DNA of 64,000 bases from an uncultured delta proteobacterium. GTDB taxonomy: Bacteria; Myxococcota; Myxococcia; Myxococcales; 40CM-4-68-19. Within the stretch, counting starts at the first letter, position 1. Each line of letters opens with the position of its first letter. Below the pieces are notes generated by a model. It was given only the letters and a program-made list of their open reading frames with translations. It searched no databases and was not told where the DNA came from. The stretch spans positions 1 through 64,000 of the forward strand of contig CAIWCD010000014.1 of NCBI GenBank assembly GCA_903911145.1, in the 5' to 3' direction. A program made the position numbers and the translations under genes. Positions 99 through 5,521 of the stretch are shown one piece after another.

Positions 99-159
99 TT
101 GCGATCGACCGCTGTCTCATAATCGTTGACAGGTTCCGCAGCCGCCGCCGCTACAGGGA

Positions 160-645
160 GTGCCAGTCACCGCGCCGGTCGTTCCCTACGACCCGTGCGC
201 TGTTCTGCAGAGCCGACTGAGCGGCCAGCAGTTGGCCGCCTCGCTCAAGGTGCTCTTTCCCTCGGGCACAGCTCCCGCGCTCGCGCAGCCGGCAGTCGAT
301 GCATCGACGCGCGCCGATCAGCAAGAGGTCCGCGACACGATCCGGCAGCAGAAGATCGCGTCGCTCACTGCGCTCTGCGACGGCACGACGAGCGCCGATC
401 CCGACAAGTGCAACGCGGCGTCGAAGGCGGCCGAGCTGCTCACTGCCGCGCAGCTCGCAGAGCTCATCGATCGAATGGTCGATCTCAACCGCATCGAAGC
501 AGTCCAGCTCGCGATGCACGTCTCCGAGCAGTCGGCGCAGCAGCAGCGCGACGACGACCGCCGAAAGCTCCTCCTCGACGCCGCTGGCCAGGTCGCGCCT
601 GCGCCGCTCCAGCTGCGCGCCCCTGGCTTCACCTTCACGGAGTAA
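160..645 (+). CDS. Hypothetical protein in the VirB5 position of a T4SS-like cluster
   Basis: About 161 residues from a GTG at 160. The frame is already protein-like upstream (Gln/Pro-rich) back to a TGA at 127-129, so the true N-terminus is uncertain and could have been lost by a small indel. The visible protein has a proline-rich start with one Cys, then a largely helical, Ala/Gln/Asp-rich body with two further Cys around residues 72-84 and a basic-acidic stretch near residues 130-140. No clear signal peptide or membrane segment is seen. It ends 5 bases before a polytopic VirB6/TrbL-like gene. In many T4SS operons this place is taken by VirB5/TrbJ, which is the only reason to compare it to them; the sequence itself does not identify the family. 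Confidence 0.6.
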   Translation: MPVTAPVVPYDPCAVLQSRLSGQQLAASLKVLFPSGTAPALAQPAVDASTRADQQEVRDTIRQQKIASLTALCDGTTSADPDKCNAASKAAELLTAAQLAELIDRMVDLNRIEAVQLAMHVSEQSAQQQRDDDRRKLLLDAAGQVAPAPLQLRAPGFTFTE

Positions 646-650
646 TCGCG

Positions 651-1598
651 ATGACCTCGACAAATCTGCCAGCACAGCTCGTCGATCTAAGCAGCGGCGC
701 ACCCGCGCAGCTCGTCGCGATCACGCTCTCGATGGCGTGGAAATACTTTTTCTTCCTCGCGCTCGTCTCGTTCATCGTCGAGGCCTTCGGCAAGAGCCCG
801 ACCGAGCCGCGCGACTACGCTGCCTGCACATGGCGCGCGGTGATCGTGATGGTGCTGCTCGCGAGCTACCAGCAGCTCTTCGGCAGCCTGGTGAACTTCG
901 CGGCGCAGCTCGCCGCTGATGTCGCGCCAGCGCCGATCGCGAATCAGCTCGGCGGCAGCCTCGTCTCGAGCGCGCAGAGTTTCTGGAGCGTGGCCTCGGC
1001 CGGCGTGGGCGCGACTACTGCGACGTCGATCTCGAGTGCCGCGACGTCGTCACTTGTCGGCGACATGTTCTTCAAAGCGCTGATCGGCTTCGTCACTGTC
1101 CTCGGCCTCATCGCCAATCGCATCATCATGTGGCTCGCGGGAGTGCTGATCGCGCTCTGCTACGTGCTCGGCCCGCTCGCGCTCGTCTTCTCGATTCCGC
1201 GCGTCAGCTCGGTCGGCGTGAAGTGGTTCGAGCACTTCGTCTCGATATGCACCTGGCCGATCATCAGCGGCGTTCTCGTCTGTCTCGTCGGCGCGCTCGG
1301 TGTTCAGGTGTCCGGCGATGCAGGGCAGAGCCTCAACTCGCTCGCGATGTCGCTGGTGCTGCTCTGCACAGCGATCGCGACGCCGGTGCTCGCCGGGAAG
1401 TTCGTCGGCGGTGGGATGGCGCACGCGGTCTCGCACGGGTTCAGCACCGCGTCTGGTCTCGCTGGAGGCGTGAAGAGCCTCGCTGAAAAGGCCACGTCGA
1501 ATCGAGGCGACTCTCCTTCGCCGCATGGCGGAGGTGCAGGCCCGTCGAGCAATCAGGGCCCAACGAATGCGCCCGCTCCGGCGGGAGGTCTGCCGTGA
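651..1598 (+). CDS. VirB6/TrbL-like polytopic inner-membrane protein
   Basis: 315 residues starting at ATG 651 (a longer frame running back to 126 is a shadow of the upstream gene). It has about five to six hydrophobic segments: one near residues 25-45 (AWKYFFFLALVSFIVEAF), one near 62-75, a long Ala/Ser/Thr-rich extracytoplasmic stretch, then several close-packed helices around 140-260 (for example ALIGFVTVLGLIANRIIMWL) and a hydrophilic Gly/Pro/Ser tail. This is the layout of VirB6/TrbL proteins, which form part of the inner-membrane channel of type IV secretion systems. The stop overlaps the start of the next gene by 4 bases (GTGA), so the two are translationally coupled. The family call rests on topology and position, not on a diagnostic motif. 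Confidence 0.7.
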   Translation: MTSTNLPAQLVDLSSGAPAQLVAITLSMAWKYFFFLALVSFIVEAFGKSPTEPRDYAACTWRAVIVMVLLASYQQLFGSLVNFAAQLAADVAPAPIANQLGGSLVSSAQSFWSVASAGVGATTATSISSAATSSLVGDMFFKALIGFVTVLGLIANRIIMWLAGVLIALCYVLGPLALVFSIPRVSSVGVKWFEHFVSICTWPIISGVLVCLVGALGVQVSGDAGQSLNSLAMSLVLLCTAIATPVLAGKFVGGGMAHAVSHGFSTASGLAGGVKSLAEKATSNRGDSPSPHGGGAGPSSNQGPTNAPAPAGGLP

Positions 1599-2290
1599 AG
1601 AGCGCCAGCGTTCGCGCGCTCGGCCCTCCGGCGATCTGGACGGCGTTCGCGAAGCAGGCCGCGTGGAAGGATTGGGTGATCGTCGCGCTCTTCGCGCTCA
1701 ACGTGCTCCTCGTGATCGCGGGCGTGCATATCGCGCGTCGCGATCCCGACATCGTGCTCGTCGCCGCTGACGGGAAGAGCACGTTCGTGCCGAGGCAGAT
1801 CGCTGGTGACGCGCTCGAGAGATTCCTCTCTGAGCAGCGCCAGCAGCCCTCGGACGTTACAGTTGTGCACTTCACGCAGGAATTCCTGCGACTCGCCTTC
1901 GCGATCAACTCCAGCACGATTGAAGCGGCCTGGGCAGACGCTCTCGCTCTGATGGGAGACGATTTGCGTGGAAGGTACGCCGCCGAAGCTGCAGGGCAGA
2001 AGTTCGTCGAAATCTACAAGCTCGCGCGAGTGAGGACGTCGCTCACCGTCGAGGAGCTGCAGCTCGTCGATCGCACCAGCACGCTCTTGCACGTCCGCGC
2101 GGTCGTCGCGCGCAGCAAGGCGAGCCTCATTTCCGATGAGGCCGCGCTCTTCGACGATCGCCTCGCCATTGAGCTGGTCGAGCGCGTCGTGCCTCGGTCG
2201 ATGAGTCGTCCCGATGGTCTCGAGGTCGTCGGTCTCAACGTCTCTGTCGTCAAGACCGGTGCTGCTGCACCTGCCAGGAGCACTCCATGA
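1595..2290 (+). CDS. VirB8-like bitopic inner-membrane protein
   Basis: 231 residues from GTG 1595, overlapping the previous stop. A short cytoplasmic N-terminus is followed by a single membrane helix at about residues 25-46 (WVIVALFALNVLLVIAGVHI), then a soluble periplasmic domain of about 180 residues. That topology and size match VirB8/TraE-type assembly factors, whose periplasmic part has an NTF2-like fold, and the gene sits between VirB6-like and VirB9-position genes as virB8 usually does. The C-terminus (valine-rich strands ending LEVVGLNVSVVKTG) fits a final beta strand. The next gene begins 4 bases before its stop. No sequence motif proves the assignment. Confidence 0.62.
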   Translation: MKSASVRALGPPAIWTAFAKQAAWKDWVIVALFALNVLLVIAGVHIARRDPDIVLVAADGKSTFVPRQIAGDALERFLSEQRQQPSDVTVVHFTQEFLRLAFAINSSTIEAAWADALALMGDDLRGRYAAEAAGQKFVEIYKLARVRTSLTVEELQLVDRTSTLLHVRAVVARSKASLISDEAALFDDRLAIELVERVVPRSMSRPDGLEVVGLNVSVVKTGAAAPARSTP

Positions 2291-3216
2291 TTCGCATCGC
2301 GATCACCGCTCTTCTCGTCTCCTTCGCAGCGCGCGCCGCCCCGGCTTCGTCAAAGCTTGCGCTCCCAGAGAGCAAAGAGCGGCAGCCGGCCAATCGAACG
2401 CTCACGCTCACCGACGAGAATCGCGACTTCGTCCCCGAGCTGCACGTCGCGCCGGGTGTGCCGACGACGCTCATCTTCTCGATGAACGTCGACAAGAACG
2501 GCACGCGCCTCGCCGATGCGAACGGCGTTCTCTATCCGCTGCTCGTGCAGGCGAACACGGCGATCGTCACGCCGAAGGTCGAGCTGCCCGCGAGCGCGGC
2601 GGTGCCGCTGAGCGTGGCGCTCACCGACGGAACGCTGCTCTCGTTCGTGCTGCGGCCCGCGACGACGCAGATCGATTTCCAGGTCACGGTCGAGGCGCGC
2701 TTCACGCGCAACGCCGCGCCCGAGTCGGTCGATACGCTCAAGCAGCAGATCGCGCAGCTCCAGTCGCGCATCGACGAGATGCAATCCAACTCGAGCCACA
2801 CGGCCGTCGCGCACGTCGCGAACCTCGTGCTCACGCAGGAGCCGGGCAGCGCCTCCGCGCGGACGTTCGAGGCCCACCGCGTTCACTCTCGCGACAAGCA
2901 GTCGCGATTACTTGTCGAAGCCAACTATGTCTATCGGCTCTTCTCGAAGTCCTATCTCCTGCTCTCCGTCGAGAACCGCGACCCGTCGCGCGCCTGGGTA
3001 TTCGACCGCGCGGAGGTGCATCTCAAGAGCGGCAGCGAAGACGTCAGCGTTCCCGTTGAACACGCCGAGACGGACGTCCGGAGCCTCCCGCCCGAGGAGA
3101 CCGCGAAGCTCGTCGTCGTCTTCGATACCCCTTCGCAGAGCAGCGGGCAGGCGTTGCAGATCTCTCTGTTCGAGAAGGGCGGCGCTCGCCAGGTCACCTT
3201 GGATATCGAGCCGTGA
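2287..3216 (+). CDS. DUF2381 (TIGR02268)-like secreted protein in the VirB9 position
   Basis: 309 residues with an N-terminal signal peptide (MIRIAITALLVSFAARAAPA, cleavage near residue 20). The body resembles DUF2381/TIGR02268, a family first noticed as paralogues in Myxococcus, often beside protein kinase genes. Typical features are an early 'VAPGVPTTLIFS' segment, a strand-rich middle with 'LTDGTLLSFVL', a coiled Gln-rich piece around residues 150-175, and a C-terminal beta domain ending near 'GGARQVTLDIEP'. The two-domain beta layout with an early PGVxTTL segment also recalls VirB9/TraK proteins, and the gene lies exactly where virB9 is expected. DUF2381 membership is a motif-based reading; equivalence to VirB9 is inference. 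It shares 4 bases with the upstream gene and is 46 bases from the kinase fusion gene. Confidence 0.68.
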   Translation: MIRIAITALLVSFAARAAPASSKLALPESKERQPANRTLTLTDENRDFVPELHVAPGVPTTLIFSMNVDKNGTRLADANGVLYPLLVQANTAIVTPKVELPASAAVPLSVALTDGTLLSFVLRPATTQIDFQVTVEARFTRNAAPESVDTLKQQIAQLQSRIDEMQSNSSHTAVAHVANLVLTQEPGSASARTFEAHRVHSRDKQSRLLVEANYVYRLFSKSYLLLSVENRDPSRAWVFDRAEVHLKSGSEDVSVPVEHAETDVRSLPPEETAKLVVVFDTPSQSSGQALQISLFEKGGARQVTLDIEP

Positions 3217-3262: not shown

Positions 3263-5521
3263 ATGGACGCGTCCCTCGGCCCCGAGTTGCCGGTCGGCAC
3301 GAAGATCGGCTTCTACGAAGTGCTCCCGATCTCGACGAGCGCCGACGGCAAGAAGATCCGCACCTGCCTCGGCTATGGCGGCTTCGGCTCGCTCTACAAA
3401 GTGAGCCGCGGCTCGAAGGTCTACGCGCTCAAGCTCGCGCACCGAGCGCTCCGCGACTTCTCGCCAGCGGAGCGGAAGTGGAACGAGGAGCGCGGCGATC
3501 GCGAGGTCGGCGCGCTCAAGCTCCTGCGCCATCCGAACATCGTGCGCGTTCACGGCTTCGACATGTGGCCGGACGAGGAGGGCAGGGCGTTCATCGTCAT
3601 GGATCTCGTCGAGGGCAATCACCTCGACGTCTGGCGCGCGACGCAGTCGCCGAGTCTGAAGCGCATCTGCGAAGTGTTCATCGCCATCGGCCGCGCGCTC
3701 GGTGCGGCGCATCGGCAGCAGGTGTTCCACCGCGATCTCAAGTGCGAGAACGTCCTCGTCCGCACCGCCGATGGGCAGCCGATCATCGTCGATTGGGGCA
3801 TCGCGCGCCCGCGCAACGCCCGCACGGTCACGGCCGTCGGCGGCTGGCTGGGCACCTGCACGCACTTCTCGCCCGAGTATTGCCGCTACGCTGTCGGTGA
3901 CTTTCCCGACGACTCGCCCGAGTCGCAGCGATTCTCGGTGACGCCGCAGAGCGAGCTCCACGCGGTCGGCTTCATGCTCTTCCAGTTGCTCACTGACGAG
4001 AGTCCGTTCCCGTCCGATGAAGACGACTTCGCGACAATGCGGTCGATCATCAATCACCAGCCGGTCGCTCCCTCGACTCGGAATCCGAACGTCCCGAAAG
4101 CGCTCGACGCGATCGTGCTCAAGCTGCTCGCGAAGGCGCCGGGCGAGCGCTACGAGAGCGGCGATCAGTTCGCAGACGCGCTCGAAGCGCTCCTCGTCAA
4201 TGCCGACAAGAAGTGGACCGAGCCGTTCGATCTTCCACTCGTCGCTCCATTGATGAGCGTGAAGGACACGCCGCCGGCGTTACCCGCGAAGCCCGCTGTT
4301 GCTGCGACCGTTCCGGAAGGTCCACGCGCCGCACCCGCAGTGGCGGCGAACGTCGGCCGAGTCTTGATGCCGACCGACGCGAAGGCCGCGCAGCACGTCT
4401 CGGTTCACTCTGTGGAGATCATCGGCGAGGTCGGCTCGGAAGCGCCAACGCAGCCGCCGAAGCGGCTCAAGTTCGACGCAGCCCAAGCGCAGGTCCTCGC
4501 GGCGAAGGGGCCGAGGCGCATGCCGTCGGGCCCCGTCCTGGTGGCGGCGATTGTCGCGCTCTCGCTGGGCGCGTTTGTCCTGATCGCGAAGCTCAGCGCG
4601 CCCGCCAAGAAGCCCGAGAGTCTCCTCGCGAGAGTTCAGGCAGAGGAGAATCTTCCGATAGCGTCCGCGACGACGAGTGCGGCGCTTGACCAGAAACTCA
4701 ACCTCTTCCCTCCGGCCCCGGGCGTTGCAGCAGGCGCTGGCGCGAAGCCGGTGGTTGCAGAGCCGCCGCAGAAGGCGACAACAAAGCCAAGCGTAGCGAG
4801 CGACCACTCGAACGTGGATGAGCGCGCAATCGATCAGGAGATCGCCGCGAAGTACGGCCGCCCGCAGGTCGTTGCGACGACAGCAGCGAAGCCGGATGCA
4901 GCGGTACCCTCCGCGACGACGACTCCAGAGGACGACACTCCCGCCTGGCTGCGCCCGGTCGGAGAGCCGAAGTCGCTGGCAGATGCAGGCCCGAAGCTCT
5001 ACGGCGTACCGACCGGCGTGCTCGTGCGCGCTCGACTGCAGAACAACCTCGACAGCCGCACCGTCGCGGATGGCCCCGCGACAGCGAAGCTCGTCCGCCC
5101 ATTTGTCGTCGACGGAAAGTTCATCTTCCCCTCGGGCACGCTCCTGTTCGGTCAAGCCGCCGTCTCCGGCGCGCGCTTCACGATCCACTTCAATCGCCTC
5201 CGCCTCCCGGACCGCACCGAAGTGCCGTTCGAGGGGCTCGCCTACAGCGTCACCGAGCACCAGCCTGGTCTCGCGGCATCTCGCTCGGCGCAGCCCACCG
5301 CACAGCAATCGTCGACCGCGGGAAAGGTCGCCAAGGGCGCGGCCAACACGCTCCTCTCGGCAGCCGCGGCAGCGATGACTGGCAACGTCGCCACCACCGT
5401 CGCAAGCGAGGCGGGGCGCACGGCCCTCGGCGACCAATCAGACGCTCCATCCTCCTCGCAGACGACGTTGATGCTCGACGAGGGGGCCGATCTTGACGTG
5501 TTCATCGTCAAGGCATTCTGA
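3263..5521 (+). CDS. Serine/threonine protein kinase fused to a VirB10-like T4SS component
   Basis: 752 residues from ATG 3263 (upstream in-frame codons overlap the previous gene). Residues about 15-310 form a Hanks-type kinase: glycine-rich loop GYGGFGSLYKV near 36-46, ATP-binding Lys57 in YALKLA, an RHPNIVRV segment, catalytic loop HRDLKCEN with Asp158, metal-binding DWG in place of DFG at Asp177, and a C/SPE-type activation segment end. All key residues are present, so it should be active. A membrane helix lies near residues 424-446 (VLVAAIVALSLGAFVLIAKL), then an Ala/Pro-rich periplasmic linker of about 130 residues. Residues about 579-752 resemble the VirB10/TrbI C-terminus: VPTGVLVRARLQNNL, then FIFPSGTLLFGQ, then RFTIHFNRLRLPDRTEVPF. 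Order and topology match VirB10, with the cytoplasmic part replaced by a kinase. Substrates are unknown; components of the same complex are plausible. Confidence 0.85.
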   Translation: MDASLGPELPVGTKIGFYEVLPISTSADGKKIRTCLGYGGFGSLYKVSRGSKVYALKLAHRALRDFSPAERKWNEERGDREVGALKLLRHPNIVRVHGFDMWPDEEGRAFIVMDLVEGNHLDVWRATQSPSLKRICEVFIAIGRALGAAHRQQVFHRDLKCENVLVRTADGQPIIVDWGIARPRNARTVTAVGGWLGTCTHFSPEYCRYAVGDFPDDSPESQRFSVTPQSELHAVGFMLFQLLTDESPFPSDEDDFATMRSIINHQPVAPSTRNPNVPKALDAIVLKLLAKAPGERYESGDQFADALEALLVNADKKWTEPFDLPLVAPLMSVKDTPPALPAKPAVAATVPEGPRAAPAVAANVGRVLMPTDAKAAQHVSVHSVEIIGEVGSEAPTQPPKRLKFDAAQAQVLAAKGPRRMPSGPVLVAAIVALSLGAFVLIAKLSAPAKKPESLLARVQAEENLPIASATTSAALDQKLNLFPPAPGVAAGAGAKPVVAEPPQKATTKPSVASDHSNVDERAIDQEIAAKYGRPQVVATTAAKPDAAVPSATTTPEDDTPAWLRPVGEPKSLADAGPKLYGVPTGVLVRARLQNNLDSRTVADGPATAKLVRPFVVDGKFIFPSGTLLFGQAAVSGARFTIHFNRLRLPDRTEVPFEGLAYSVTEHQPGLAASRSAQPTAQQSSTAGKVAKGAANTLLSAAAAAMTGNVATTVASEAGRTALGDQSDAPSSSQTTLMLDEGADLDVFIVKAF

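Follow-up and report, generated by a model that had tools for sequence, protein, structure and literature searches.

Conjugative type IV secretion systems (T4SSs) are already known, and their VirB10-type subunits (VirB10, TrbI, TraF, TrwE and the TraM of Bacteroidetes) share an outer-membrane-channel C-terminal domain, a single N-terminal membrane helix and a proline-rich periplasmic linker, the corresponding gene being placed after those for VirB8 and VirB9. The cytoplasmic part of the known members is a short tail. Cascales and Christie are said to have described Agrobacterium VirB10, in 2004, as a sensor of ATP energy. The PknB-type PASTA kinases, by comparison, combine a cytoplasmic kinase, one membrane helix and an extracytoplasmic sensor domain. 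The protein analysed here resembles both families. It is encoded in the window (the whole 64,000-nucleotide stretch studied, which begins at base 1 of contig C14) by a single forward-strand open reading frame of 752 amino acids, with its ATG at 3263 and its stop at 5521. It has the domains and gene position of a VirB10, whereas its cytoplasmic part consists of a kinase of about 300 residues and a linker of about 100 residues; it has the layout of a PASTA kinase, including a PknB-like kinase domain, whereas it lacks PASTA repeats and its ectodomain is a secretion-channel subunit. No description of a kinase-VirB10/TrbI fusion was found in the open-access literature, including surveys of myxobacterial signalling and kinases and reports on DUF2381. 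The initial annotation, made from the sequence, likewise knew of no system built this way, and a conjugative T4SS with a receptor-like-kinase VirB10 is undescribed in that literature.

The accompanying system is similarly related to known ones. It resembles F-type and Bacteroidetes-type conjugation systems in having a TraC/TraG-like VirB4, a VirB10 that scores with TrbI and TraM, and a DUF2381 protein weakly similar to TraN/DUF4138, but these similarities are distant, and the system differs in its DUF2381-type VirB9, its large Ig-domain lipoprotein and its kinase-VirB10. It also has counterparts in the Myxococcus TIGR02268/DUF2381 paralogous family, as its VirB9-like gene encodes a DUF2381 protein, and kinase/DUF2381 pairs recur on chromosomes; unlike the fusion loci, however, those pairs are found with no T4SS and with the VirB10 domain reduced to a stub.

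Table 1. Features at the start of the window, with the evidence for each.
Feature	Position	Strand	Evidence
End of multi-copy repeat, probably an insertion sequence; contig start	1..141		Exact identity with ends of contigs C44 and C20
VirB5-like gene, C-terminal half; N-terminal half and signal peptide missing	142..645	+	Family profile E=6e-13
VirB6/TrbL-like membrane protein	651..1598	+	Family profile E=1e-124; operon position
VirB8-like protein	1595..2290	+	Family profile E=1e-106; mostly synteny
DUF2381 protein, VirB9-like	2287..3216	+	Pfam DUF2381, 161 bits; AlphaFold/PDB comparison
Kinase-VirB10 fusion, 752 aa	3263..5521	+	ORF, Pfam, catalytic residues, Foldseek
Hanks-type Ser/Thr kinase domain, residues 35-298	3365..4156	+	Pfam Pkinase E=1.3e-26
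Single transmembrane helix, residues 424-442	4532..4588	+	Kyte-Doolittle window mean 2.63; N side basic
Ala/Pro-rich periplasmic linker, residues 443-569	4589..4969	+	Composition
VirB10/TrbI/TraM C-terminal domain, residues 570-752	4970..5518	+	Pfam, alignment, AlphaFold, Foldseek
Ig-domain lipoprotein, 1,618 aa	5574..10430	+	Pfam Big_7; homologues after VirB10 in most loci

The layout proposed in the initial annotation stood up in each part. The catalytic residues of the kinase lie exactly where they had been placed (K57, D158 of the HRD motif and D177 of a DWG motif), within a domain recognised by Pfam at E=1.3e-26. The one membrane helix expected is the only hydrophobic helix in the protein (residues 424-442), and the basic residues N-terminal to it predict an N-in orientation. 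It is preceded by a cytoplasmic linker (residues 321-420; 20% Ala, 15% Pro), and the Ala/Pro-rich linker thought to be periplasmic follows it at about residues 443-570 (20% Ala, 13% Pro). Across 25 related kinases, the catalytic Lys, the C-helix Glu, the HRD Asp, the Asn next to it and the DxG Asp are present without exception, the Gly loop is near-complete, and the activation-loop Thr (T190 in the window's protein) is conserved in all 25 despite strong divergence of the domain. We take T190 to be the counterpart of the activation-loop Thr that is autophosphorylated in PknB. Since both the catalytic residues and this Thr have been kept in every one of these proteins, the pattern indicates selection for kinase activity, and the conserved catalytic residues rule out a pseudokinase. 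The best NCBIfam match of the domain is PknB-like, below the cut-off, while the PASTA kinase model NF033483 scores 148.7 bits against a cut-off of 450, with the match limited to the kinase part. An artefactual join of two genes is ruled out: 15 T4SS loci share this layout in a single open reading frame, and RefSeq annotates the fusion as one protein on two plasmids.

At the other end of the protein, predicted structure and sequence together identify the C-terminal domain as a true VirB10. Fourteen homologous C-terminal domains were aligned, and residues 570-752 were modelled with AlphaFold, giving a mean pLDDT of 75.6 and a core above 90; model residues 112-162, the likely helical antenna, which in VirB10 proteins crosses the outer membrane, fall below 50, as do the helices predicted within it at 117-134 and 143-150. 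When this model was compared with the PDB using Foldseek, all 25 matches at E<1e-3 were VirB10-type proteins, from T4SS core complexes or ComB10. The best was the X. citri T4SS (6gyb, E=1.1e-8), the others including TrwE of R388, CagY, Dot/Icm, the pKM101 outer-membrane complex, F-type systems and ComB10, and the first match beyond the 25 had E=0.22. These matches rule out an unrelated fold, and the comparison with VirB10, TraF and TrbI that the initial annotation had proposed returned only VirB10-type structures at that threshold. The VirB10/TrbI families of Pfam (PF03743, PF12508) provided tests of membership at the sequence level: residues 610-713 of the window's protein match Transposon_TraM, the VirB10 of Bacteroidetes conjugative transposons, by the thin margin of 25.4 bits over a cut-off of 25.1, and a homologue (L041) matches TrbI by a similarly thin one (35.6 over 35.0). 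Hence the VirB10/TrbI pattern first recognised from the sequence is upheld by the fold matches and by Pfam. When PDB sequences were searched with a profile of the aligned C-terminal domains, nothing matched, and so the link to VirB10 is visible only by fold comparison and Pfam.

Upstream of the fusion, the VirB5-like, VirB6-like and VirB8-like proteins are so labelled from weak or absent Pfam matches in combination with synteny. Pfam TrbL reaches E=0.011 on the VirB6-like protein, below its cut-off, and a homologue of the VirB8-like protein weakly matches TraE (E=0.14). The VirB5-like fragment covers positions 144-292 of the 299 in the profile of a protein of about 300 amino acids, whose gene lies between those for VirB4 and VirB6 in the related operons. 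The DUF2381 protein also weakly matches DUF4138/TraN, the VirB9 of Bacteroidetes systems, and the top four PDB matches of its AlphaFold model are T4SS core-complex chains from an F-type system and Legionella Dot/Icm (E from 6.5e-10 to 1.3e-6), with low TM-scores. As assorted beta-sandwich proteins come next after these four, the protein is likely, but not proven, to be VirB9-like; DUF2381 thereby gains a likely role. Downstream, the Ig-domain lipoprotein, most homologues of which have a lipobox-like start, is a candidate for a surface or mating adhesin.

The same arrangement recurs across the Myxococcota, where gene prediction and family profiles give the operon order VirB2-B3-B4-B5-B6-B8-B9(DUF2381)-kinase/VirB10-Ig lipoprotein. 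The VirB4-type gene encodes TraC and TraG P-loop (ATPase) domains, and the VirB2 and VirB3 candidates have weak TrbC and TraL matches. The C-terminal domain is present in 17 of 145 genomes of the order and, by profile, in 23 of 195 genomes of the phylum. Among the 17 T4SS loci that have VirB4 and this VirB10 domain both inside the fetched stretch, the VirB10 carries a kinase in 15, two of which are nearly identical; the kinase-less proteins belong to a sister system (L090, in genome G043) and a distant one (L096, in G160). The expectation that DUF2381, VirB6-like and VirB8-like genes would accompany the fusion holds for these T4SS loci. Of the 14 genomes with the fusion, 11 (G013, G015, G016, G020, G029, G086, G109, G113, G115, G136 and G157) also encode a TraG/TraD-type coupling protein on the contig that bears it, frequently with no second one elsewhere in the genome. 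The three that do not are the window's genome and two others in which the fusion lies on a contig of less than 8 kb. Sequence, fold, gene neighbourhood and recurrence strongly support the central claim of the initial annotation, that a complete kinase replaces the cytoplasmic part of a VirB10 within a T4SS.

Some of these systems, which occur in soil myxobacteria, are plasmid-borne. The circular plasmid NZ_CP123279.1 (L060) of Myxococcus sp. MxC21-1 carries the fusion as WP_316568125.1, and the circular plasmid pYRE (NZ_CP102771.1, L115) of M. stipitatus YRE12 carries it as WP_342382212.1; Anaeromyxobacter oryzisoli SG63 and A. soli SG29 are further named carriers. Both plasmids encode a coupling protein, ParA/ParB and a protein similar to Replic_Relax (PF13814, a putative relaxase), the last scoring above the cut-off on the MxC21-1 plasmid and just below it on pYRE. 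The gene tables of the two plasmids, which are incomplete, list no substrate, FHA protein or phosphatase. Judged by gene content, the fusion is part of a conjugative T4SS of Myxococcota that is carried on plasmids and probably also on integrated elements. MOB-suite types both plasmids as 'non-mobilizable', yet they carry a full mating-pair apparatus and a coupling protein. They are likely to be conjugative plasmids, which may aid the development of genetic tools for myxobacteria, a group with few known plasmids. Further afield, a search of phages found no match, and a scan of 84,980 species gave none with the full protein as query; with a close alignment as query it yielded four members, along with one Acidobacteriota protein that has no kinase. 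The scan is keyed to one short peptide pattern and cannot establish absence outside Myxococcota.

The copy in the window's own genome is in a different state. The elements of a conjugative T4SS (VirB4 ATPase, VirB6/8/9/10 and coupling protein) are assembled in other genomes and not in this one, as neither VirB4 nor a coupling protein was found in its draft assembly (98.96% complete), whereas the same VirB4 query found matches in six control genomes, at identities down to 26%. Hence this copy is probably a broken remnant, or else the rest of it lies on sequence that was not assembled. The first 139-141 bases of the contig recur exactly at the ends of contigs C44 and C20, beyond which the three sequences diverge immediately, and the repeat ends inside the VirB5-like gene; the repeat is probably an insertion sequence, which would have disrupted this gene as well as the assembly. 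The kinase-VirB10 reading frame has remained intact despite the cut operon.

The history of the fusion was reconstructed from trees of VirB4 and of the kinase domain. VirB4 trees contain three deep groups: class I comprises the window's type, found in Anaeromyxobacter and Myxococcaceae; class II comprises three copies in G157, from another family; and class III comprises pYRE, G115 and the kinase-less system of G043. In the kinase tree, to which 17 further kinases from the window's genome were added, class I clusters with orphan kinases encoded on chromosomes (support 100/99); class III, together with two 'stub' proteins, is nested among ordinary kinases (100/97). With classes defined by the VirB4 tree, and AU tests run after the kinase tree had been seen, a single clade of classes I and III with their near relatives was rejected (p=0.0022), as was one of classes II and III with the stubs (p=6e-5), whereas one of classes I and II was not (p=0.48). 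The VirB10 domains of classes I and III are homologous though their kinases fall apart in the tree, and the rejection of a single clade for these two classes means that VirB10 acquired a kinase, or exchanged one kinase for another, on at least two occasions.

The orphan kinases, sister to class I, are encoded on Myxococcaceae chromosomes (L055-L059), where a DUF2381 gene is followed by a gene for a kinase with a membrane helix and a short VirB10-like stretch; no VirB4, VirB6 or VirB8 was found in the 17-20 kb fetched around them. We infer that they are T4SS parts taken over as free-standing signalling pairs. A DUF2381/kinase pair by itself is not a sign of a T4SS, because such orphans occur without one. 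The initial annotation had staked its reading on homologues having T4SS-like genes nearby, which proved true of the full-length fusions and failed only for these truncated relatives with a VirB10 stub. The proteins of L055-L059 also contain, away from their ends, a Cys motif resembling a lipobox. Two kinase-less proteins with the same stub (L099, 4906-6078, and L100, 6561-7784) form another branch of the family, and one of them adjoins a DUF2381 gene.

How such a machine may work is suggested by the architecture of its relatives, in which the core complex contains a ring of VirB10 subunits whose cytoplasmic parts contact VirB4 (PMC12624023). Sequence and fold place the kinase in covalent linkage with the T4SS subunit that crosses the inner as well as the outer membrane. 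As VirB10 subunits form a ring in the outer-membrane core complex, assembly would crowd about a dozen kinase domains at the inner membrane, beside VirB4 and the coupling protein, where they could phosphorylate one another in trans on Thr190. The activated kinases would then act on the local T4SS, through the neighbouring ATPases, or on proteins of the donor cell. The VirB10 ectodomain would have the role of the PASTA repeats of PknB, tying kinase activity to assembly, gating or mating contact, which the kinase would report to the donor. Since a complete kinase is built onto the inner end of VirB10, phosphorylation signals are probably read or sent by the machine itself, and no secretion channel working in this manner was found among those described. 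That a VirB10 with an intact Hanks kinase as its cytoplasmic domain operates in conjugative T4SSs of Myxococcota through assembly-clustered kinases is, leaving aside the direction of signalling, a reading we consider reasonably probable.

The direction itself is a finer question, on which outside-in signalling or an assembly checkpoint is slightly favoured, it being at least as likely that the kinase senses the state of the channel as that phosphorylation gates it. Were the signal to run inside-out, a cytoplasmic cue such as growth, energy or relaxosome docking would cause the kinase to phosphorylate VirB10, VirB4 or the coupling protein and thereby open or build the channel, replacing the ATP-sensing role reported for Agrobacterium VirB10. 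We regard this as rather unlikely: the kinase is intact in all members and is located where VirB10 meets VirB4 in known systems (PMC12624023), but the sister system has a VirB10 with no kinase. Indeed, as the VirB10 proteins of both the sister system in G043 and the distant one in G160 are kinase-less, the machine as such does not need the kinase, which suggests it is a regulator rather than a structural requirement. Its dispensability in L090 would also suit a kinase that serves the element by altering donor physiology (for instance development, predation or exclusion of a second plasmid), with VirB10 as a mere anchor. Such kinases are numerous in myxobacteria, and 28 places in the window's genome match the fusion query, nearly all through the kinase part; nevertheless, the fusion is repeatedly and specifically to VirB10 rather than to another anchor, making this improbable.

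Least probable of all, to the point of being hardly credible, is an ordinary receptor kinase that borrowed a periplasmic beta domain and acts outside any working T4SS. The orphan pairs with their shortened VirB10-like domain and no T4SS (L055-L059), the position of these orphans as nearest relatives of class I, and the incomplete T4SS of the window would all accord with it, but the orphans retain only a stub of the domain, whereas full-length fusions occur in complete T4SS operons with coupling proteins, some of them on plasmids. More probable than these last two, though still less likely than not, is the fullest version of the outside-in reading, in which the outer-membrane channel is also a receptor-kinase sensor: a ring of VirB10-borne kinases, switched on by assembly or mating contact, would inform the donor cell of ongoing transfer through Ser/Thr phosphorylation. 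In this version the coupling evolved more than once in Myxococcota, and pieces of it later became chromosomal DUF2381/kinase modules. How T4SSs sense partner cells and gate their channels is a long-standing question, to which a built-in kinase gives a direct handle.

The far end of the operon shows variation of its own. A huge Ig-domain lipoprotein follows the kinase-VirB10 in nearly all operons (such as L043, L047, L048, L053 and L115), and is also present where the kinase is absent (L090). On pYRE, a type I topoisomerase gene lies between the genes for the kinase-VirB10 and the Ig protein, and in G157, from another Myxococcota family, there are at least three copies of the class II system (L091, L094 and L095), each followed by two Ig-type lipoproteins.
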